DNA of 64,000 bases from Natronolimnohabitans sp. A-GB9. GTDB taxonomy: Archaea > Halobacteriota > Halobacteria > Halobacteriales > Natrialbaceae. Where the stretch lies: contig NZ_JAVDDV010000014.1 of assembly GCF_030848565.1 (NCBI RefSeq), forward strand, positions 1 to 64,000. The letters are read 5' to 3'. Of this stretch, positions 3,944-41,503 are shown piece by piece. The translations under genes and the position numbers were made by a program. Below the pieces are notes generated by a model, which made no database searches, was not told the origin of the DNA, and worked only from the letters and a program-made list of their open reading frames with translations. Each line of letters opens with the position of its first letter. The first letter of the stretch is position 1.

Positions 3944-5629
3944 TCAGACCGCGCTGCCGGGCTGGAATTCGCCGAACTCGTCGCGCAGGACGTTACAGAT
4001 CTCCCCGACGGTCGCATAGACTTTCACGGCCTCGATGATGTACGGCATCAGGTTCTCGTCGCCGCGGGCGGCCTCGCGCAGGGCCTCGAGTTTGGCGTCG
4101 ACGGCCTCGCTGTCGCGGTCGCCACGGACGGACTCGAGGCGGTCGATCTGGCGCTGCTGGTCTTCCTCGGTGACCTCCTCGACGTCCATCTCGGGTTCGC
4201 CCTCGTCGATTTCGAACTCGTTGACGCCGACGATGATGCGCTCTTTCTCTTCGATCTCCTTTTGGCGATCGAAGGCAGTGTCCTGGATCTGGCGCTGAAC
4301 CCACTGCTGTTCGACGGCCTCGAGCATGCCACCACGATCCTCGACTTCGTCTAAGATCTCGTAGGCCTCTTCCTCGACCTCGTCGGTCAGCGACTCGACG
4401 TAGTAGCTGCCCGCAAGCGGGTCGATCGTGTCGGCCGCGCCCGACTCGTGGGCGAGGATCTGCTGGGTCCGCAACGCGGTTCGGACGGATTCCTCGGTCG
4501 GCAGGGCAAGCGCCTCGTCTTTGCCGTTGGTGTGGAGGCTCTGGGTGCCACCGAGAACGGCCGCGAGTGCCTGGTAGGCGACGCGGACGACGTTGTTCTC
4601 GATCTGCTGGGCGGTCAACATCGAGCCCGCGGTCTGGGTGTGGAACTTGAGCTGTTTCGACTTGGGATCGTCCGGGTCGAACCGCTCTTCCATGATGTCG
4701 TGCCACATCCGACGGGCGGCGCGGAACTTCGCGACCTCCTCGAAGATGTTGTTGTGACCGTTGAAGAAGAAAGACAGCTGGGGGGCGAAGTCGTCGACGT
4801 CGAGACCAGCCTCGATCGCGGCCTCGACGTACTCGATGCCGTTACCCAGTGTAAAGGCGAGTTCCTGTGCAGCTGTTGCACCGGCCTCGCGGATGTGATA
4901 CCCCGAGATCGAGATCGTGTTGAACTTCGGTGTCTCCTCGCCACAGAACTCGAAGATGTCGGTGATGATCCGCATCGACGGCTCCGGCGGATAGATGTAC
5001 GTGTTGCGCGCGATGTACTCCTTCAGGAGGTCGTTCTGGATCGTCCCCCGGAGCTGCTCGCGGTCGACACCCTGCTGGTCACCGACCGCGATGTACATTG
5101 CCAGCAACACGGAGGCCGGTGCGTTGATCGTCATCGACGTCGAGACCTCGTCTAGGGGAATGCCGTCGAAGACGGTCTCCATGTCCCGCAGCGAGTCGAT
5201 CGCGACCCCTGCCTTGCCGATCTCGCCGGCGGCCATGCTGTCGTCGGAGTCGTACCCCATCTGGGTCGGCAGGTCGAAGGCCATCGAAAGCCCCGTCTGG
5301 CCCTGATCGAGCAGGTAGTGGTAGCGCTCGTTGGTGTCCTCCGGCGTCGAGAACCCGGCGTACTGGCGCATCGTCCACAGCCGGCCGCGATACCCAGTCG
5401 AGTACACCCCGCGCGTGTACGGCGGTTCGCCGGGGTTGCCAAGGTCCTCCTGGTAATCGAAGTCCGCGACGTCGTCGGGCGTGTAGAGCCGGTCGACCTC
5501 CTGGCCACCCGTATCTGTCGTGAACGTTTCCTTCCGCTCGCCGAATCGCTCGAGGACTGGCTGAACCTCCTCCTCGTGCCACTCTTCTTTGCTGGCACGG
5601 ATCTCCTCGAGTTCGTCAGGGTCGAACAT
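3944..5629 (-). CDS. mcmA: Methylmalonyl-CoA mutase, large (substrate-binding) subunit
   Basis: A 561-residue subunit of the adenosylcobalamin-dependent enzyme that interconverts methylmalonyl-CoA and succinyl-CoA. The family's N-terminal block is clear ([18 protein letters not shown], then [20 protein letters not shown]), followed by [12 protein letters not shown] and [18 protein letters not shown]. The length matches the archaeal split form, which lacks the C-terminal cobalamin-binding domain (no DxHxxG motif is present). That small subunit must be encoded elsewhere. ATG 5629 gives the usual short acidic N-terminus. In haloarchaea the enzyme serves propionyl-CoA breakdown and methylaspartate-cycle carbon flow. 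The promoter region is 5630-5711; the next gene upstream is a GNAT in the same orientation. Confidence 0.95.
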
Positions 5630-32535: not shown

Positions 32536-33918
32536 TTACTCCTTGCTATCGGTCTCGACGGACAAACTCCCCCGTTCGTGCATCATCTCCGTTCCGCGCT
32601 CGAGCCAGTTACCCCGGAGGTAGACGGCGCTGACGACGACGTTTCGCCAGGCGAAGTCGGCGACGACTGCGACGTAGGCGGCGACGACGCCGTACTCGAG
32701 GTGGACGCCAAAGAGGTAGGTCGTCCCCAGCAGGAAGACGACGGCGCCGGTGAGCTTCGCGACGAACGGCGGCCGGGTCTCGCTGCCGCCCCGCAGCGAG
32801 CCGGCGAGGACGACGTAACAGGCGATGAGGACCGTCGAGATGGCGTAGGCTCGAGCGAAGTCGGTGGCGTAGCCGATCGTGGTCGGATCGCTCGTGAACA
32901 CGCGGACGACCGGCTCGGCGGCGACGAAAATCACGGCGCCGAGACTACCGACAGTGAGGACGGCGAGGGCCGCAGCGGCGAGGCCGTTGAAGTACGCCGC
33001 GTCAGTATCACCGCGACCGAGGGCCTGTCCGGAGATGATGTTCGCGGCGGTGCCATACCCCCGCGAGAGCGGCGAGGAGATCTGCTGGTACACCCGGCGA
33101 CCGATGTGGTAGGCCGCGTTGACCTCAGTGCCGAACGCGAGCAGGATCGCGTTGAACGGGAACTCGGCGATCAGTTCGGTGATCCCCTCGGCGACTCGCG
33201 GTGCGCTGATGACGAGCAGCTGTTTCATGATCACCAACTGCGTCGGTCGAACGAACGACAGTTCGCTCCAGGAGCTGTAGATCACGATCAGAAACGTCAG
33301 CGCCGCCAGCACGTCGCCGACTGCTGTCGCGACGGCGATGCCGACGACCGAGAGTTCGGGGAACGGGCCGAGCCCGAACGCGAGCGTAACGGTAAGAGCG
33401 ATGTTGAGCGCGTTCGCTGCCGCGTTGACGTACATCGGCGTCTTGGTGTCGCCGGTCCCCTGGATCGATCGGGCGGCGATCATCGTGACGTGAAACGCCG
33501 GCGCCGTAAGAAGGATGATCGCCAGGTAGAGTCCGCCCAGGCGGACGGTCTCCGCGTCGGCGCCCAGGACCTCGATCGCCCAGAAGCTCCCGACGAGCCC
33601 GAAGATGGCGAAGGGAAGCCCCGCGAGGACGCCGAGCAACAGCGCCTGACTGACCGCCTCGTCGCGATTGGCCGTCCGGCCGCTACCGGTGTCCTGACTC
33701 GAGAGTGCGATCGCGCCGTCGCCGACGCCGAGGCCGAACCACAGCGGCAGTCGGCCGTAGATATCCGCAAGTCCGACGGCAGCGACGGCGGCAGGCGAGA
33801 AAAACCCCGCGACGATGAGGTCCGTCGTCCGCATCAGCGTCCGAAGCACCTGTTCGGCCATCACCGGCCAGGAGAGATCGAACACGCGTCTCCAGACGGC
33901 GAGGATGCGGCTCCGCAT
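32536..33918 (-). CDS. MATE-family multidrug efflux transporter
   Basis: About 460 residues with twelve hydrophobic segments in two similar halves. N-terminal VFDLSWPVMAEQVLRTLMRT and TDLIVAGFFSPAAVAAVGLA match the MATE start, and ARSIQGTGDTKTPMYVNAAA is the first-half signature. The second half has ITELIAEFPFNAILLAFGTE and SRGYGTAANIISGQALGRGD, then AGSLRGGSETRPPFVAK as its signature. It exports drugs or metabolites in exchange for Na+ or H+. ATG 33918 (MRSRILAVWRRVF) is chosen; GTG 33942 would add eight residues. It is divergent from the malate/lactate dehydrogenase gene. Confidence 0.9.
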   Translation of the reverse strand: MRSRILAVWRRVFDLSWPVMAEQVLRTLMRTTDLIVAGFFSPAAVAAVGLADIYGRLPLWFGLGVGDGAIALSSQDTGSGRTANRDEAVSQALLLGVLAGLPFAIFGLVGSFWAIEVLGADAETVRLGGLYLAIILLTAPAFHVTMIAARSIQGTGDTKTPMYVNAAANALNIALTVTLAFGLGPFPELSVVGIAVATAVGDVLAALTFLIVIYSSWSELSFVRPTQLVIMKQLLVISAPRVAEGITELIAEFPFNAILLAFGTEVNAAYHIGRRVYQQISSPLSRGYGTAANIISGQALGRGDTDAAYFNGLAAAALAVLTVGSLGAVIFVAAEPVVRVFTSDPTTIGYATDFARAYAISTVLIACYVVLAGSLRGGSETRPPFVAKLTGAVVFLLGTTYLFGVHLEYGVVAAYVAVVADFAWRNVVVSAVYLRGNWLERGTEMMHERGSLSVETDSKE

Positions 33919-34051
33919 CGACGACCCGGAAGCGGTGTCCACGACTGTCGCTTTCGTCAGGGACCCCTTGTAGCTTCAGATCCCGGTGACTCGACTCGCC
34001 GACCGAACCCACGACAAGGAGTTTCTTTACGCCGGAACGTAATCGTCGATC

Positions 34052-35032
34052 ATGCACGTTCTCGTCATCGGCGGCGGCGGAACGATCGGTGCCACCGTCG
34101 CGTACACGCTGGCCGTAACGCATCCGACCGCGGATCTGACTCTCGCCGATCCGCAGACGGACGTAACCGAGGGACACGCGATCGATATCCACCACGCTCG
34201 GTGTCACGCCGCCCATGCGGTTGGCCGGCCGGCGTTCGACGACGCCCGGCCCGGCTCCCTCGAGGTCGTCGACACCGAAACGGGAACCGATCCCGGGCTC
34301 GTCGACGACGCCGACGTCGTCGTGGTCGCGGCCAGCGCACCGCGCGATCCGGGAAGTTTCGAACGCGGTGGTCGCCTGTCGGTCCTCGAGGAGAACCTCG
34401 AGCTGGCGGCCGAGCTCGGCGACTGGTTTGCAAGCGCCGAACCGACCCCGACGGTCGTCGTCGCGAACCCGTCCGATCGGGTGACCCACCGGCTCTGGGA
34501 GTCGAGTAGCTGGCCACGGCGGTGTTTCCTCGGCTACTCGCTGTCCGAGAGCGCACGGATCGCCGACGAACTGGCCCGACGGGTCGACGGCGACGTCTCG
34601 CCGGCCGACGTCTCCTGTCCGATCCTCGGGGAACACGGGGAACACATGGTCCCGCTGTTCTCACGGGCGACCGTCGACGGCGATCCGGTCTCGTTCTCGG
34701 CGGCCGAACGCGAGGCGATCCTCGATGCCGTCCGGTCGATCCCCTACGACGTCATCGAGAAACGCGGCGGCGACGACTCCTCGCGATGGGTCACCGGTCG
34801 TGGCGTCGCCTTGCTCGTCTCGCGGCTCCTCGAGGGTGGCACCGACCCGGACGAGCCAGTCTGTCTCTCGACGCCGCTTGACGGCGCGTACGGACTCGAG
34901 GACGTCAGCCTGAGTGTTCCAGTGGTCCTCGACGGCGACGGCGTCGCCGAAATCGTCGAGTGGGAGCTTACGGCCACCGAGCGGGAACGTCTCGAGCGGG
35001 CCGCGACGGCGATTCGGGACTCGCTCGAGTGA
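34052..35032 (+). CDS. Malate/lactate dehydrogenase-family enzyme, diverged paralogue
   Basis: 326 residues. The Rossmann NAD-binding loop is VLVIGGGGTIGATVAYTLAV. Active-site parts are present: SAPRDPGSFERGG (mobile-loop Arg pair), VVVANPSDRVTHRLWE (the NP pair), SLSESARIADELARR (substrate Arg) and LGEHGEHMVPLFSRA (catalytic His). The order and length fit archaeal L-malate dehydrogenase of the LDH-like type. The loops differ from the typical haloarchaeal MDH (ASAPRDPG in place of AGIPRQPG, and LSESAR in place of LDSAR). It may thus be a second 2-hydroxyacid dehydrogenase rather than the TCA-cycle MDH. ATG 34052 is clear. A CRISPR remnant follows downstream. Confidence 0.85.
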   Translation: MHVLVIGGGGTIGATVAYTLAVTHPTADLTLADPQTDVTEGHAIDIHHARCHAAHAVGRPAFDDARPGSLEVVDTETGTDPGLVDDADVVVVAASAPRDPGSFERGGRLSVLEENLELAAELGDWFASAEPTPTVVVANPSDRVTHRLWESSSWPRRCFLGYSLSESARIADELARRVDGDVSPADVSCPILGEHGEHMVPLFSRATVDGDPVSFSAAEREAILDAVRSIPYDVIEKRGGDDSSRWVTGRGVALLVSRLLEGGTDPDEPVCLSTPLDGAYGLEDVSLSVPVVLDGDGVAEIVEWELTATERERLERAATAIRDSLE

Positions 35033-35054
35033 ACGCCGGGAATTACAGGGTATC

Positions 35055-35078
35055 GAGGCGAAAGCCCACGGCTTTATA
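35055..35078. repeat. Hairpin AAAGCC-CAC-GGCTTT next to the CRISPR repeats
   Basis: A 6-bp stem with a 3-base loop preceded by GAGGCG, similar to the hairpin context at 15733-15760. It lies 25 bases upstream of the first CRISPR repeat. It could be an IS200/IS605-type end or a terminator of the dehydrogenase gene. Confidence 0.4.
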
Positions 35079-35100
35079 GTCGATGCGGTATCGCCCGCCG

Positions 35101-35213
35101 GTCGCAGGACACCGAAAACCCGAGAAGGGATTGAAACTTGGATTTCACCCACCGTGAACGAATTCGCTGTGGGACTGTCTCAGGACACCGAAAACCCGAG
35201 AGGAGATTGAAGC
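35101..35213 (+). CRISPR. Two-repeat orphan CRISPR (37-nt repeats, one 39-nt spacer)
   Basis: Repeat 1 (35101-35137) begins GTCGCAGGACACCGAAAACC and ends AAGGGATTGAAAC. Repeat 2 (35177-35213) differs at four positions and ends GAGATTGAAGC. The 39-nt spacer between them begins TTGGATTTCACCCACCG. The GATTGAAAC end is the usual 3' end of archaeal CRISPR repeats, so the array reads left to right and the degenerate copy is the last repeat. No cas gene is present in the window. It is an array at the end of its life or a solitary mini-array that could use Cas proteins encoded elsewhere. Confidence 0.85.
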
Positions 35214-35295
35214 GGTGTCGTCTTGGGCCATGATGCCACCATCGCAGGACGACTCCAGCGCAGTACTCAAGGAATTAGCTGTGATCCGGCGCAGT

Positions 35296-35511
35296 CTATC
35301 TCCGGTCCGCAAGGTCAACAAACGACTCGGCGCCGGTCGCCACGATCCAGCGATTCAGTAGTTCGTCGTTTGTCGTCTCGGGATAGATCGCTAGCTCGGT
35401 GGGCGCATCGTTGACGTCAACGAGCGTGTGCACAAGGTCGCGATCAATCTGGTTGTGATGCGGGGCTTTGAGATCATGATCGTAATCGAACGGGTTGTCA
35501 GTCGTGGTCAC
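35296..35511 (-). CDS. Small DUF7511-like haloarchaeal protein
   Basis: 71 residues: TTDNPFDYDHDLKAPHHNQI, then LVHTLVDVNDAPTELAIYPE and NDELLNRWIVATGAESFVDL-ADRR. The run DAPTELAIYPxTTNDELLNRWI followed by SFVDL resembles the haloarchaeal DUF7511 domain (PTECTIFP...WI...GSYVDL). Its function is unknown. It overlaps the end of the next upstream small gene by 14 bases, which suggests a shared transcript. A truncated paralogue lies at 38166-38274. Confidence 0.65.
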   Translation of the reverse strand: MTTTDNPFDYDHDLKAPHHNQIDRDLVHTLVDVNDAPTELAIYPETTNDELLNRWIVATGAESFVDLADRR

Positions 35512-35626
35512 TGGTAGTACCTCCGCGATTCTGTCTCGCGATCGTCGTCGCGCTCGAGCGCTGCATCACCTGTTCGATGTCCGCTTGCGTCGCCTGTTCA
35601 TCATCTGGTAGACGGGAGTAACTCAT
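35498..35626 (-). CDS. Small hypothetical protein (42 aa) of the duplicated cassette
   Basis: MSYSRLPDDEQATQADIEQV followed by MQRSSATTIARQNRGGTTSD and HD. ATG 35626 overlaps the stop of the upstream fragment (ATGA), and its end overlaps the DUF7511-like gene. The same arrangement occurs at 38215-38305 (fragment stop and ATG sharing ATGA), where the reading frame is damaged. No known domain. The longer frame upstream is a shadow. Confidence 0.5.
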   Translation of the reverse strand: MSYSRLPDDEQATQADIEQVMQRSSATTIARQNRGGTTSDHD

Positions 35627-35790
35627 GCCCACTTGCCTCGCTTCGAGAACTGCGTGTGTGAGTCGTCGTCCGTCGTCGACGAGAGTCCGACATCTTCGGG
35701 AGCGATCTCGGGGGCGGCCAGTTGCGACCATCGATAGGTTATCGTGTCACCACCATAGAGCAGGAATACCTGCCCCGGGCCATTCTTTTG
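35623..35790 (-). pseudogene. 5'-truncated first gene of the cassette
   Basis: The frame reads KNGPGQVFLLYGGDTITYRW, then SQLAAPEIAPEDVGLSSTTD and DDSHTQFSKRGKWA before TGA. The end (LAAPEIAPEDVGLS--TDDDSxxQFSKRG) is clearly homologous to the fragment at 38302-38566 (LAEPEIGPEDVGLSAMTDDE, then SIAKFSKRG). The N-terminal half is different or lost, and no start codon is seen. Confidence 0.55.
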
Positions 35791-35819
35791 GGTCTCAAAT
35801 CAGACTCAGTCCACTCATT

Positions 35820-36467
35820 CTATCCGGCAGTAGAATTTAGTCTTTTTCCAGCATAGAAGACCAATCCGCTTCCTATGGCAAACAGAGCTATTCGGACCGG
35901 AATAAGACCATCACTTGCTATCCAAGGAGCTGGTTGATTCAGAGTCCCTGTTCTGAAATAATACTCATTTTCATATTCAATAATTTCACCTCGCTCAAAA
36001 GTTTCCACTCGTTCATCATAGACAGTGGTTGATCCCGTCTTGACAGCCTCTTTGACTTCTGGAGGACGATCTTCGGCCGGGATAGCAGCATGAGGTATTG
36101 CATTAATATTAGATGTCTCTCGTAATGTGAATTCTGTCGTACCATTATTTATATTGCTTTCTGGAATATATACGTCTTCTTCATGTTGAATAACAGGATA
36201 CGAGGGGCCTCTATCAATACTCCCATTATACTCTATTGACCCTTCTTCAAGAATCTCTTCTTCGAATATACATTCTCTAGCACCGGGACAGTTTAATACT
36301 TGTTCTGATGACAAAAGCGCAGCTTCTGCTGCAGACTCATTTTCTATTTTGTCCACATAATAGGTCATTTCTCCGTCACCACCCCCATCGGGATACAAAT
36401 AAACAGTATTTAGTAGTAATATTATTCCCAAAGTGAATATTGCTATGGTAATTATATGTTGCTTCAT
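35820..36467 (-). CDS. Hypothetical membrane-anchored protein of an AT-rich block
   Basis: About 215 residues. A hydrophobic N-terminal helix (IITIAIFTLGIILLLNTVYL) and a C-terminal one (IPVRIALFAIGSGLVFYAGK) bracket an external domain with two Cys (VLNCPGARECIFEEE), likely a disulfide. I do not recognise the domain. Codon use is A/T-rich, in contrast to neighbours at either side. ATG 36467 (MKQHIITIAIF) is chosen over 36479. The last codons and stop TAG overlap a family B-like end (TACTGCCGGATAG on the minus strand), so an element may have fixed its C-terminus. It sits downstream of two genes of the same block. Confidence 0.65.
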   Translation of the reverse strand: MKQHIITIAIFTLGIILLLNTVYLYPDGGGDGEMTYYVDKIENESAAEAALLSSEQVLNCPGARECIFEEEILEEGSIEYNGSIDRGPSYPVIQHEEDVYIPESNINNGTTEFTLRETSNINAIPHAAIPAEDRPPEVKEAVKTGSTTVYDERVETFERGEIIEYENEYYFRTGTLNQPAPWIASDGLIPVRIALFAIGSGLVFYAGKRLNSTAG

Positions 36468-36534
36468 TCTGTTACACAATATATATAGAACAAGTCACTA
36501 AAAATTTTTCATTTAGGCTGTTCAGATAAACTAC

Positions 36535-37257
36535 TCAAATGTCTTCATTATCTGGTACAATGTCGACATCAAGCTCAAGCAACTCACCGTCGTCAGCGGT
36601 ATAGATAGTACTATATCCATTTCTATCGATCTCGTATAACGTAGCGTCCCGAGACCACTCCGCAGAAAGTGTAGATTCGGTATAACTATTCCCACCAGAC
36701 ATATCAAATGCAACCCCTGCAGCATCCCTTTGACCACTAGGAAATCCATCTACTGGAATTTCCCACTCGGTGTATTGATAATCCTCATCATCGGTCGTAA
36801 CTCTGTCGGCAGGAAACGACCTTGTCAGTATATCACTACTGGCTGAAATTGGGCCAAGGCCTGCGCCAAGAGCTATTTCAATTGAAGTATAGTCATCATC
36901 TTCAGTTGGATATGGATCTTGAACATCTATATGATTATCAAATCTATTATCACCATATTCTAGTGATACTACCATATTATCAGCAATCCAATTATATATT
37001 TTGGAATCATCCTCCGCACTCTCTGATAATTCGGGTTCGTCATCATAATGCCACATGAATGCCCACGTGGTTTCATTTCCTGAAGGGATTGACGGCTCTA
37101 ACGGATTATCAAAACTATCTACCTTAGTATCTGCTAATATATATGTTCTATATTCATACGTCGCTCCATCGATCGTTCCAGAAAAATCATTCCTTTGTCT
37201 AGTTTTGATTCCAGATGGGATAATTTCAAAAGAACCAGGAGGTTCAAGACGACTCAT
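36535..37257 (-). CDS. Hypothetical protein of the AT-rich block (240 aa)
   Basis: 240 residues, acidic and soluble, with no signal peptide. Parts read PPGSFEIIPSGIKTRQRNDF, YEYRTYILADTKVDSFDNPL, TWAFMWHYDDEPELSESAED and WSRDATLYEIDRNGYSTIYT. The many aromatic and beta-prone stretches suggest a beta-sandwich, but I recognise no family. Its ATG overlaps the TAA of the upstream Tat-protein gene by one base (TAATG), so they form one operon. A/T-rich codon use marks it as recently acquired. Confidence 0.6.
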   Translation of the reverse strand: MSRLEPPGSFEIIPSGIKTRQRNDFSGTIDGATYEYRTYILADTKVDSFDNPLEPSIPSGNETTWAFMWHYDDEPELSESAEDDSKIYNWIADNMVVSLEYGDNRFDNHIDVQDPYPTEDDDYTSIEIALGAGLGPISASSDILTRSFPADRVTTDDEDYQYTEWEIPVDGFPSGQRDAAGVAFDMSGGNSYTESTLSAEWSRDATLYEIDRNGYSTIYTADDGELLELDVDIVPDNEDI

Positions 37258-37751
37258 TATTTTTCTCCTCCTTTAGTTTTTTCAAGAAGATTCAGAACCC
37301 TATCATACCCACCATTTCGAGTATCATCTAGCACAAATGCTGTTCTCTCCAGTGACTCTGGCGAACGAACGAAGCCAGTAATATTACCCTTATTAGGGAC
37401 TATTGCTTTGATTAGTTCATTATAGACCTCATCCTCTTTCTGGGTAAGTTCTCTGAAGGATTGGGCCTTTAGATCATTATTATTATAATTAGAATGAGGG
37501 GTATTTTGATTCATATTATAACTTCTTCCATTAACTCGGAGATTTCCAACAAATTCTCCAGAGTTCTGATTGAGTTGAGCAGATGCTTCACCCAAGATCT
37601 CGTGGGTGTAAGGATCGTATGCAATACCCTCAAATCTAGAACCGCGTGATGCACCTCCGGTAACCGCAAATCCAGAACTCACAACCGATGCTGTACCTAG
37701 TGCCTTTAGCACTTTTCTTCGATTCTTATTAACAGGGATTCTGCGACCCAT
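37257..37751 (-). CDS. Hypothetical Tat-signal protein of the AT-rich block
   Basis: 164 residues. KNRRKVLKALGTASVVSSGF with AVTGGAS is a Tat signal (NRRKVLK). The mature part reads GIAYDPYTHEILGEASAQLN and SGEFVGNLRVNGRSYNMNQN, then FRELTQKEDEVYNELIKAIV. No domain is recognised. It is first in a three-gene block read leftwards. Upstream (37752-38081) the DNA is AT-rich and would hold its promoter. Confidence 0.65.
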   Translation of the reverse strand: MGRRIPVNKNRRKVLKALGTASVVSSGFAVTGGASRGSRFEGIAYDPYTHEILGEASAQLNQNSGEFVGNLRVNGRSYNMNQNTPHSNYNNNDLKAQSFRELTQKEDEVYNELIKAIVPNKGNITGFVRSPESLERTAFVLDDTRNGGYDRVLNLLEKTKGGEK

Positions 37752-38081
37752 AATACAATAATTATATGGTTAGTAATAATGAATTACTTCCCGGATAATG
37801 TTTCTGATGGAGAAAGTATTATATAAAAATGTAAAATATATTATAGTTATAGATCACCACCATATACTTGGATAATCTGGAATATTTTTAGCATTATTCT
37901 TGGAAACTTAATGATATTAGTTATTGAGTTCTGTTTTTAACTAAGCGAGAAGCCACGTGATAGCGGTGGCTTATCGTGGCCTCTAATCGAGAAGAATGAA
38001 GAAATCAAGTCCATGCACGACAACGACCCTTCATCTCGAATTATGCATCAGTTCACTATACTCTTTCCTTGAGCCGGCGCT
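37752..38081. other. AT-rich intergenic region with a hairpin
   Basis: No gene is seen. The segment 37780-37940 is strongly AT-rich, unlike the rest of the window. At 37950-37972 lies AAGCCAC-GTGATAGCG-GTGGCTT, a 7-bp stem with a 9-base loop, followed by CGTGGCCTC. It may be another IS200/IS605-type end or mark the border of the acquired block. Confidence 0.5.
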
Positions 38082-38274
38082 ATAGTAGCCACTGAAAGTC
38101 AATGAACACCCGATCGCACGACAGCTGTGCGATCGGTGTGTAAATCGTTTCAGTTGTTACTATAGTACCATCCAGACTCTCGAAATCGTAGTCGTAGTCG
38201 AGAGGGTTGTCGATCGCACTAATTGGTGGGATCTCCGCGAGCCGGTCTTGCAGTCGTCGCGCTCGAGAGCACAA
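38080..38274 (-). pseudogene. DUF7511-like gene truncated by a family A element
   Basis: The frame reads ISAIDNPLDYDYDFESLDG, matching the N-terminus of the intact paralogue at 35296-35511 (TTDNPFDYDHDLKAP). It then enters the family A element and continues through it as TIVTTETIYTPIAQLS before a stop. The conserved DAPTEL...W...SFVDL part is gone. The 5' region also appears shifted relative to the cassette's small gene. Confidence 0.6.
38082..38164. repeat. Family A palindromic element, best-preserved copy
   Basis: An 83-bp unit from TATAGTAGCCACTGAAAG to TTTCAGTTGTTACTATA. The core is the inverted repeat CCGATCGCACGACAGCTGTG with CGATCGG. TA is present at both borders and could be a target duplication. 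It is inserted in the small DUF7511-like gene and supplies its present stop codon. Confidence 0.8.
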
Positions 38275-38301
38275 ATTGCTTGTCCTGTCGGGTTGCTTCG
38301 G

Positions 38302-38566
38302 TCATACCGATCCCCCACGCTTGCTAAACTTCGCGATCGATTCGTCGTCCGTCATCGCCGAGAGTCCGACATCCTCGGGACCGATCTCGGGCTCTGCAAG
38401 CCGATCGGCAAGTGTCTGTCCGTCCCGATTGATCCCGTAGTGGCCCATCCGACGGCGAATCGTCTCCGCACCAGGCCCGTCGGGGAAGCAATCGGCGAGC
38501 TTGACGAGCGTGTGGTCGTAATCGTGGTACAGATGTGCGAGCGTCCGCGGATCGTCCCACGGTTTG
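38302..38566 (-). pseudogene. First gene of the cassette, 5' end cut by the ISH3-like element
   Basis: The frame from the IS border reads KPWDDPRTLAHLYHDYDHTL, then VKLADCFPDGPGAETIRRRM, GHYGINRDGQTLADRLAEPE and IGPEDVGLSAMTDDESIAKF-SKRGGSV. The part LADCFPDGPGAETIRRRMGHYGI looks like a helix-turn-helix. It would thus be a small DNA-binding protein. No start remains because the IS lies at its 5' end. A paralogue end lies at 35623-35790. Confidence 0.6.
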
Positions 38567-39954
38567 ACAGTAGTTGCTGAAGTGGCCAGACAACGATTAT
38601 CGTCGCGGTCGTTGTCTCATATGGTCGAGACAAGCGAGGCAACGCAGGTGACCCGTGCGGCGTCGTCACTACTGTTTCCTGAACTTGAGTTCGGGATCGC
38701 TGCGAATGGGACGTATCCAAGCGAGGACTTCCAGCGAGTCCTCACTCGGATCGCCTTCGACAACGAGTTCGCCAATACTGGCGCGAAAGCCTATCAGCTT
38801 GTCCGTGGCGACGATATTTCTATTGACGCAACCGCTCGAAATCCGCTTGCGCGGGCGCTTCTCTACCATTTGCGTGGACTCAACGCGGACGCGGTCGACA
38901 ACCAGGTTCGACCGCGTCCGCGACGCAATCCTCGACGAAGCAGCTCGCAACCGCGTGTTTACCCGGCCAGTCGACGTCGCAATCGATGTTCACGACTGGC
39001 TTTATACGGGGACGAAGAGACACCTCACGTCTGTACAACGAATCCAATCCAAGGCACCGATCGTGCATACAAGTTCGCTACCGTCTGTATTGTCGATCCG
39101 AGCGTTCGATTCACGCTTGGATCGGTAGCGTTGGGGGGAGCGATACCGACGAGTTGGCGGAGGCGCTCCGCCAACTCGTCTCAGAAGTCCGCGAGTACGC
39201 CGACATCAACCGGCTCTACCTCGATCGTGGCTTCTATCGCGTTCACCTCGCATTGACGCTCGAAGATCTCGACGTTGAGTTCCTGATGCGTGCGCCGCAA
39301 ACACGAAAGGTACAGCAATTCATTGACGACCACGACAGTGATACGTTCATCGCAGAGTACGAGATGGCTCGATCGAATCCACCCGACGGGCCGGACGTCA
39401 GTCCGGCTCGTCGTCGTTCCGCATCGAACACGAGATGACGACCACTTCTGTCTGGTCACCAACCGCGATCTCGACGTCAGTGCCGACGTCGAGATCGCTC
39501 GTCCGCTAGCTGAAGCATATCGTCGTCGCTGGGGTATCGAAACGTCCTATCGCAAGATCACTGAGTTTCTCCCAAGAACGTCCTCACCGACGTTCTCAGT
39601 ACGGCTGTTCTACTTCCTGTTCGCTGTTGCGTTGTACAATCTGTGGGTATTGACAAATCTGCTCGTGAGACCACGGTGGGCAGTCGGGACGGACCCAGTC
39701 GTCCCGACCGCCCTGTTTCGCGCGTTTCTCGGCCAAATACCGTACGGATAGCGGTTGTCTCGGCGACTGACTCGGGCTGATCAGCCCGAGTCAGTACGTC
39801 CCTCAATACTGGCAAGACTGGGAGAACAGCGGCTGACGGGATGATTTGGCAGTTGTTGCACTCTCTGGCTAGCCCTGGGAACAGTTTCACGAAGCTAGGG
39901 CCGATACGGAAATTCCATTCTCGCGGTTTTCCTGATCGAATCAGCAACTACTGT
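38567..39954 (+). mobile_element. ISH3/IS4-like insertion sequence, about 1.39 kb, inactive
   Basis: The ends are a perfect 14-bp inverted repeat, ACAGTAGTTGCTGA (38567-38580) and TCAGCAACTACTGT (39941-39954). The span of 1388 bp is what the ISH3 family has. It contains one transposase gene in several frames. No clear target duplication is left. It interrupts the HTH-like cassette gene on its left. The 190 bases after the transposase carry no gene. Confidence 0.8.
38621..39751 (+). pseudogene. Frameshifted DDE transposase of the ISH3-like element
   Basis: Pieces in at least three frames give a full transposase when joined: VTRAASSLLFPELEFGIAAN (from 38621), FDRVRDAILDEAARNRVFTR and VAIDVHDWLYTG (frame shifted), ETPHVCTTNPIQGTDRAYKF, then INRLYLDRGFYRVHLALTLE, and from about 39430 DDDHFCLVTNRDLDVSADVE with AEAYRRRWGIETSYRKI and YNLWVLTNLLVRPRWA. 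The DDE residues would be the Asp in AIDVHD, the Asp in LYLDRG and the Glu in WGIET; the Y-R-E signature of IS4-like enzymes is visible. Several frameshifts show it is dead. Confidence 0.8.
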
Positions 39955-40064
39955 TTAGCCGAGGGAGGAGGTCAAGGTCACGGTGTAACGGATTCTACTA
40001 CTGGCCGACCCAATGCTGTTAGTGCACAGCCTTATGCTGGCGAGGTATCAAAAACGCACGAGCC

Positions 40065-40514
40065 GTGACTGACCAGCCGTCGGAACCGATACGGATCCTG
40101 CTTGTCGAGGACAATCCCGGAGACGTCCGTCTCGTCAAGGAGGCGTTCCGGGAGGTGGACGTCGAGACGAGGTTTCACACCGTCCACGACGGCGACGCAG
40201 CCCTCGAGTTCCTGTACACGCGACAGCAAAACGAGGACACGCCGGAACTCGACCTGGTGTTGCTCGATCTGAACCTCCCTCGGAAAAGCGGCTTCGACGT
40301 CCTCGAGACGGTCGAGAGCGATTCGGACCTCACCGCGCCGCCGATCCTCGTCCTTACGAGTTCGGAGGCGACCGAAGACGTCGCCCGGAGTTACGAACTC
40401 TGTGCGAACGCCTATCTTACGAAGCCGACGGATCCGGACGAGTTCACCGAACTGGGCCGGGCGGTCGAGGCGTTTTGGTTCGCCGAGGCGACGTTGCCGC
40501 CAGCGGCGGCGTGA
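40065..40514 (+). CDS. Single-domain response regulator
   Basis: About 149 residues, a receiver domain only: RILLVEDNPGDVRLVKEAFR (acidic pair), LDLVLLDLNLPRKSGFDVLE with the phospho-acceptor Asp 68, ILVLTSSEATEDV (Thr/Ser) and NAYLTKPTDPDEFTELGRAV (Lys). The DNPGDVRLxKEA pattern is of the Rcp1-like type that is common in haloarchaea and is fed by soluble or membrane histidine kinases. No output domain. GTG 40065 is the start. No kinase gene is near, so the partner must be elsewhere. Confidence 0.92.
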   Translation: MTDQPSEPIRILLVEDNPGDVRLVKEAFREVDVETRFHTVHDGDAALEFLYTRQQNEDTPELDLVLLDLNLPRKSGFDVLETVESDSDLTAPPILVLTSSEATEDVARSYELCANAYLTKPTDPDEFTELGRAVEAFWFAEATLPPAAA

Positions 40515-40576
40515 CCACGGCATCGCCCTCTCACAACAGTATTTTATTTCGGCTGGCGGTGTAGGCGCCACTCGCC

Positions 40577-41503
40577 ATGCCCACTGCCACCCCCGGAATC
40601 CACCACGTGACTGCCGTCGCGAGCGATCCACAGCGCACCGTCGAGTTCTATACGGAGACGCTCGGTCTGCGACTCGTCAAACGAAGCGTCAACCAGGACG
40701 ACGTGTCGGTCTATCACCTCTTCTATGGAGACCACGAGGGGACACCGGGGACGGGCATGACCGTCTTCCCGTATCCAGACGCCGACGGCGGCCGCGTCGG
40801 GACGGGACAGGTCAGTACGGTCTCGTTTCTCGTCCCCGACGGCTCGCTCGAGTACTGGCGGGATCGACTCGCTGAGGCCGATGCCGATCCCGGGTCGCCA
40901 CACGACCGGTTCGGGAACACCGTGTTACCGGCGACCGATCCAGACGGCCTCCCACTCGAGTTAGTCGCTCGCGCGGACGCCCCGCCCGCGAATCTCCCGG
41001 AGAGCCCGGTACCCCACGCCCATGCGATTCGTGGCTTCTTCGGCGTGACGCTCTCGCTGACGAGCGGCGACGCGACCGGCGACCTGCTGAAGGGGATGGG
41101 CTATCGCCAGACCAATCGCGACGGCACGCGACTGCGCTACGAGGCCGGCGGCGACCTGGGATACGTCGTCGATATCGTCGAAGAGCCACAGGCGAGACCC
41201 GGGATCCCCGGCGCGGGGACCGTCCACCACGTCGCCTTCCGGGTCGACGACGACGAACAAGACGAGTGGCGCCAGTTCCTGATCGATCGCGGATTACGAC
41301 CGACCGAGGTCATCGACCGAACGTGGTTCGAATCCGTCTACGCCCGGGAGTACGAGAGCGTCCTCTTCGAGTTCGCCACCGAATCGCCCGGCTACACGGT
41401 CGACGAGGACCTCGAGGCGCTCGGCGAGCGACTCGTCTTGCCGGCGTGGCTCGAGGACCGACGCGAGGAAATCGAGGCAGAACTACCCGATCTCACCGGC
41501 TGA
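40577..41503 (+). CDS. VOC-family ring-cleaving dioxygenase
   Basis: 308 residues with two glyoxalase-like halves. The N-terminus GIHHVTAVASDPQRTVEFYT has the first metal His and ETLGLRLVKRSVNQDDVSVY is typical of PcpA/LinE-like (MhqO-type) hydroquinone dioxygenases. The second half starts with GFFGVTLSLTSGDATGDLLK, and GTVHHVAFRVDDDEQDEW carries the metal His; the Glu is in YESVLFEFATESPGY. It would open a (hydro)quinone or catechol ring with Fe2+ and O2. ATG 40577 is clear. It is alone between the response regulator and a convergent gene. Confidence 0.9.
   Translation: MPTATPGIHHVTAVASDPQRTVEFYTETLGLRLVKRSVNQDDVSVYHLFYGDHEGTPGTGMTVFPYPDADGGRVGTGQVSTVSFLVPDGSLEYWRDRLAEADADPGSPHDRFGNTVLPATDPDGLPLELVARADAPPANLPESPVPHAHAIRGFFGVTLSLTSGDATGDLLKGMGYRQTNRDGTRLRYEAGGDLGYVVDIVEEPQARPGIPGAGTVHHVAFRVDDDEQDEWRQFLIDRGLRPTEVIDRTWFESVYAREYESVLFEFATESPGYTVDEDLEALGERLVLPAWLEDRREEIEAELPDLTG

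Follow-up and report, generated by a model that had tools for sequence, protein, structure and literature searches.

Genes and composition of the locus

The stretch of DNA analysed here, referred to as the window, comprises 64,000 nucleotides of Natronolimnohabitans sp. A-GB9 (contig NZ_JAVDDV010000014.1, positions 1 to 64,000). The original prediction had described three minus-strand genes, namely genes for a Tat-signal protein (P1), a soluble beta-rich protein (P2) and a two-helix anchored protein with a Cys pair (P3), and these open reading frames (ORFs) were confirmed at 35820-37751, all of them intact. The 164-aa product of P1 (37257..37751) consists of a Tat signal (NRRKVLK) and an N-domain, as judged from the ORF, its RR motif and the homology to the N-terminal domain found in fused relatives. 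P2 (36535..37257) encodes an acidic C-domain of 240 aa that is homologous to the C-terminal domain of these fused relatives. It possesses neither a signal peptide nor a cysteine, and one hydrophobic segment is located at approximately residues 124-144. P3 (35820..36467) encodes 215 aa and exhibits hydrophobic segments at its N- and C-terminal ends by hydropathy as well as a family-conserved cysteine pair (Cys60/Cys66); it is found in the same place in Natrinema gari. The ATG at 36467 was adopted as the start of P3, the alternative TTG at 36479 resulting in 219 aa.

The TAATG overlap was also found as predicted. At the P1-P2 junction (37257..37274, minus strand), the stop codon of P1 and the start codon of P2 share one base, and a GGAGG Shine-Dalgarno sequence is located just 5' of them; judging from this arrangement, the translation of both genes is coupled. 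P2 and P3 are separated by 67 nt. The strong AT-richness of the block was equally evident, with GC contents of 0.404, 0.407 and 0.397 for P1, P2 and P3 and GC3 values of 0.285, 0.282 and 0.269, in comparison to a mean GC of 0.648 (sd 0.024, minimum 0.573) and a GC3 of 0.778 for 40 further long ORFs in the window. The lowest GC content of a 1-kb segment is 0.365 in this region versus 0.535 elsewhere in the window. The block had originally been drawn at 35820-37970, but its ORFs stop at 37751, and positions 37752-37970 are AT-rich upstream DNA. As noted before, none of the three proteins has a recognised domain in Pfam or NCBIfam, and sequence searches of Pfam, NCBIfam, PHROGs, PADLOC and PDB provided nothing usable for P1-P3 or their close relatives.

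The island carrying the block

The block is part of a 5.05-kb island (35037..40082) with flanks collinear to those of the same-genus genome G378. Because G378, which is collinear with window positions 33008-35036 and 40083-41475, has just 148 bp in between, the island constitutes an insertion relative to this genome. No member of the family described below was detected in G378 with the family profile, and the more distantly related genome G120 shares this gene order but lacks the block. Right of the three genes, the island harbours a decayed insertion sequence on the plus strand (38552..39969), which was recognised by fragments of a DDE transposase with DDE_Tnp_1 matches below the cut-off and which is bordered by 29-bp inverted ends (38552-38580 and 39941-39969). 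An imperfect palindrome of 86 bp (38080..38165; self-complementary, 76% over 89 columns) adjoins the block and is probably a MITE. To the left, a DUF7511-type gene and a neighbouring remnant are found on the minus strand (35296..35760; PF24351, E 1.8e-8), and a related remnant is present on the right (38192..38560, minus strand), which is 91% identical to the left-hand one across 53 nt and 73% identical across 82 nt; this pair is possibly a scar of recombination or insertion. In addition, two CRISPR-like repeats (35101-35135 and 35177-35211; 35 nt matched, approximately 91% alike, spacing 76 nt) both end in ATTGAA. No further copies were found in this genome assembly, and the pair is perhaps a relic of an array.

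The insertion missing from the congener, the patchy occurrence of the family and its AT-richness in comparison to the flanking regions support the acquisition of the island and the foreign origin that had been proposed for the block. The location of the closest trio, that of Natrinema gari, among quite different genes suggests that the block moves. Mobile-element debris in the island and the presence of two relatives on Halorussus plasmids would also agree with a decaying viral or mobile-element cargo without cellular function, for example a surface protein of a virion or element. We consider this very improbable in view of the three intact genes in the window and of many relatives located between chromosomal housekeeping genes. 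Moreover, scans of IMG/VR viral contigs did not identify any relative, and no convincing match was obtained with PHROGs.

P1 and P2 as the two parts of a predicted exported product

An initial P2 search led to longer proteins that unite a Tat signal with both the P1 and the P2 domain. Such fusions of N- and C-domain account for approximately half of the related loci, the others having two separate genes. Where the genes are split, the two ORFs mostly overlap by one or four bases, and GGTGA or GGAGG is located before the start codon of P2 in 11 of 12 loci as well as in the window. The split P2 proteins listed lack a recognisable signal peptide; the signal is present on the P1 half only, in line with the pattern expected of a Tat hitchhiker pair. 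Given the fusion behind a Tat signal in about half of the loci and the signal-less P2 half in the others, P1 and P2 appear to be the halves of one exported product, and the sequences strongly support the view that they form one unit. The Tat pathway is known to export folded proteins and complexes (PMC4273604). Together with the Tat signal of the fused form, the simplest inference is that the split P2 exits bound to P1, and P2 thus probably hitchhikes through Tat on P1. The original picture of a soluble P2 separate from the exported P1 is probably incorrect, as the P2 domain follows a Tat signal in the fused relatives. Programmed frameshifting between P1 and P2 was also considered, but we discarded it because the split genes possess a Shine-Dalgarno sequence before an ATG, and a shared slippery heptamer was not seen.

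The mean net charge per 100 aa is -12 for the C-domain and +1.0 for the N-domain, with flanking proteins averaging -7.6. A positive net charge was calculated for 17 of 31 N-domains, and the N-domain of the window itself, with its signal removed, is slightly negative. This charge contrast is weak evidence that would fit an interaction of both domains.

Apart from one stretch, the C-domain is hydrophilic. In 35 of the 36 acidic C-domains, the most hydrophobic 21 residues occupy one common position of the alignment and form either a Gly-rich segment (in the window: IALGAGLGPISA) or a likely helical hairpin. A single stretch of this kind in an otherwise hydrophilic, acidic domain may be expected of a membrane-inserting protein. 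Two C-domain subtypes align over their full length (hhalign probability 99.9, E 5e-32), and the central segment is very variable.

The structure prediction and remote homology search proposed earlier resulted in models of P1 (pLDDT 60) and P2 (pLDDT 36.8), but no significant Foldseek match was obtained for P1. The P2 model, predicted from an input of three sequences, was too poor for a structure search. The middling P1 model is a small beta-barrel; VIA-align reported a Z of 7.0 to small barrels of the factor H-binding-protein and TbpB type, and a middling resemblance to lipocalin-like barrels was observed, too. We do not draw any function from this model since a Z of 7.0 is a level common in VIA-align. 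An ordinary exported two-domain metabolic or binding protein such as a ligand-binding barrel, whose AT-richness would merely stem from the mobile-element setting, might account for the barrel resemblances and for the absence of a known toxin motif. It appears improbable in the light of the conserved hydrophobic segment, of relatives whose genomic contexts are unrelated to one another and of the lack of metabolic neighbours, and no enzyme or binding family was matched.

Distribution of the family

Using the family profile, members of this N-C family were identified in 29 of 391 Halobacteria genomes with a patchy distribution, a count from which 16 further genomes were left out as their matches comprised essentially the signal region only. 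In every host tabulated, the family loci are AT-rich in comparison to their own flanks. The window exhibits the features of this haloarchaeal family of exported proteins, namely a Tat-signal N-domain and a homologous C-domain in adjacent coupled ORFs and, as a second feature, an anchored partner (P3) next to the C-domain.

With respect to the co-occurrence of the three genes, the same trio in the same order was found at another locus in Natrinema gari JCM 14663, with protein identities of 64, 53 and 59%, which argues for more than a chance assembly; elsewhere, the partner is often a small lipoprotein termed lip or another protein. This strain harbours the intact trio, a fused member with lip, a frameshifted member with an intact lip, and a solitary lip (L044, L046, L049, L105).

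Membrane-anchored partners

In most loci, the anchored partner beside the N-C genes is a small lipoprotein of the lip family; a lip profile built without the proteins of L049 and L051 recovered both. Other partners are beta-propeller lipoproteins (L088, L107, L114), further small lipoproteins and small membrane proteins. In the C-domain tree, P3 replaces lip on three branches, and in the window clade it is nested among lip-bearing relatives. The idea of a three-gene unit therefore needs to be narrowed: P1 and P2 belong together, in keeping with their frequent fusion, but the trio is not obligatory and P3 is one of several alternative partners. Likewise, single homologues with normal GC, named in the original prediction as speaking against a unit, were found for P3 alone. 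P3 homologues were present in 34 of 194 genomes, mostly solitary and with normal GC, and P3 is hence not specific to the block. The cysteine pair is conserved across the P3 alignment. A second P3 gene and an adjacent lipoprotein-like gene, which matches the lip profile only weakly, are found on contig 18 of the same genome (L116:3824-4513, minus strand, and 4782-5411, plus strand), with no N-C gene in the stretch examined. A membrane protein of 63-66 aa is encoded near the same C-domain subtype in two other loci (L091:3064-3255 and L110:2253-2453, both minus strand), one of the two being weakly DUF6199-like, as if the partner type followed the effector subtype.

Genes of the lip superfamily were detected in 180 of 194 genomes, as a rule in a few copies each; with so few copies among several thousand genes, a lip gene would rarely be located beside an N-C gene by chance. 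The partner position was tabulated for 26 loci that carry lip or P3. In 22 of these, the partner gene lies immediately downstream of the C-domain, on the same strand in 13 and on the opposite strand in nine, with gaps up to approximately 130 nt. In L093 and L111, P3 adjoins the C-domain gene in convergent orientation. The divergence of lip tracks that of the N- and C-domains (r 0.67 and 0.66, p 2e-4, 17 loci). In five loci (L045, L089, L105, L106, L128), the exported gene is broken by an insertion sequence, a frameshift or a truncation while lip is intact, a count that is biased since L128 was found through its partner. No recognisable partner was identified in L100 and L102, and L100 is a counter-example to partner retention. 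Close lip genes and P3 genes also occur solitarily in genomes without the exported gene.

These partners are anchored and seemingly outward-facing, their lip and P3 families occur widely and often stand alone, and beta-propeller lipoproteins are typical binding modules. All this could also be explained by a non-antagonistic cell-surface complex for adhesion, mating or surface recognition, in which lip or P3 holds the P1-P2 product as a docking partner. Conserved neighbours on both strands could be docking partners instead of immunity proteins, and the lip and P3 families may have other roles as well. Persistence of intact partners beside broken exported genes, the rapid swapping of partners and the very patchy distribution make a surface complex rather unlikely in our opinion. 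A partner that outlasts the exported gene is expected of an immunity protein and less of a docking protein, which favours the immunity reading, the cases of retention being few.

Proposed function as an antagonistic system

Based on comparative genomics, which underlies our overall verdict, the block is a split member of a haloarchaeal Tat-signal two-domain family that would most likely comprise halocin-like antagonistic toxins, an explanation for which we consider the arguments and our doubts to be about evenly balanced. It is supported by a layout shared with halocin precursors that have a C-terminal active part (PMC12893001, PMC11509114) and by the patchy, island-borne nature of the family. 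Furthermore, fused homologues bear a Tat signal, the split P2 is signal-less and preceded by a Shine-Dalgarno sequence at the stop-start junction, and the single hydrophobic segment keeps its place among the acidic C-domains. The anchored genes point in the same direction by their position downstream of the C-domain on either strand, by the divergence of lip following that of both domains, by the recurrence of P3 on three branches, nested among lip-bearing relatives in the window clade, by intact lip genes beside broken exported genes and by solitary P3 and lip genes. A competition function, which had been suggested originally, would thus be plausible, and we infer the putative killing and immunity functions from these patterns. 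As a whole, the earlier interpretation is partly supported. An experiment on export, complex formation, killing or protection for any family member was not found in the literature searched.

In the proposed mechanism, P1 and P2 would fold together in the cytoplasm, and the complex would leave via Tat on the P1 signal. P1 would serve as both export escort and inhibitor, keeping P2 inactive until release or proteolysis outside the cell. As the effector, P2 would then insert its hydrophobic segment into the membrane of susceptible haloarchaea, and P3, facing outward on the producer, would block P2 and confer immunity. More tentatively, and with considerable doubt, the block may represent a new archaeal class of two-polypeptide secreted toxins with a Tat-signal inhibitor and escort, a folded membrane-active passenger and an interchangeable outward-facing anchored immunity protein, the interchangeable set then comprising P3, small lipoproteins, beta-propeller lipoproteins and small membrane proteins.

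Archaeal protein weapons are poorly known, and to our knowledge only few halocin genes have been cloned so far. If the toxin explanation is true, some 30 candidate precursor-immunity loci, named in no family database, exist across Halobacteria, and with them it could be tested directly whether archaeal toxins cross Tat carried by their own inhibitors.

Comparison with known systems

Halocin H4 is made as a secreted precursor that the protease HlyR4 cleaves to yield an active C-terminal fragment (PMC12893001), and pinholes in the envelope have been described for its producer (PMC6759562). The N-C family resembles H4 in the exported RR-signal precursor, in a hydrophobic segment inside an acidic C-terminal half and, by proposal, in an active C-terminal part. 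Due to this shared layout, homology was tested and rejected at the sequence level: using a three-member H4 profile derived from a partial probe, hhalign aligned the signal alone, and the probability dropped to 0.7% after removal of the signal. An N-domain resembling P1 is missing in H4, and the lipoproteins neighbouring H4 relatives do not match the lip family. With no match outside the signal and none to lip, the system is therefore halocin-like in its working at most. The partial H4 probe retrieved three apparent relatives with 61, 32 and 35% identity (L052, L053, L054), each adjoining a small lipoprotein gene that is a possible immunity gene of the halocin H4 family.

In the case of halocin C8, the precursor ProC8 is exported via Tat and gives rise to the immunity protein HalI and the 76-aa peptide HalC8 (PMC11509114). 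ProC8 is one Tat precursor whose N-terminal part protects and whose C-terminal part is active (PMC11509114), and the N-C family would share this arrangement. In contrast to the C8 peptide released from one precursor, P2 is a separate protein of 240 aa without cysteine, a comparison made by description, the N-C halves can be separate genes, and an additional anchored protein is present. H4 and C8 both need the cutting of a single precursor. Two naturally separate genes would demonstrate that the halves can function as subunits of their own.

A shared N-terminal trafficking part, a diverse C-terminal part and immunity-like genes that are both adjacent and solitary are reminiscent of bacterial polymorphic toxins. 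In contrast to these, the C-domain subtypes, despite their very variable central segment, seem to form one homologous family instead of being exchanged unrelated domains, and export would proceed via Tat, no secretion machine having been recognised. Pore-forming colicins are soluble proteins with a hydrophobic hairpin, and their immunity gene may be located downstream on the opposite strand. Both traits recall the likely hairpin of some C-domains and their possible opposite-strand immunity gene, but the export route is another one, and we know of no homology to the N-C family. A parallel to the putative export of P2 is offered by PaoABC, in which a signal-less partner is exported bound to the Tat-signal subunit (PMC4273604); the passenger there is part of an oxidoreductase, whereas the passenger proposed here would be an effector.
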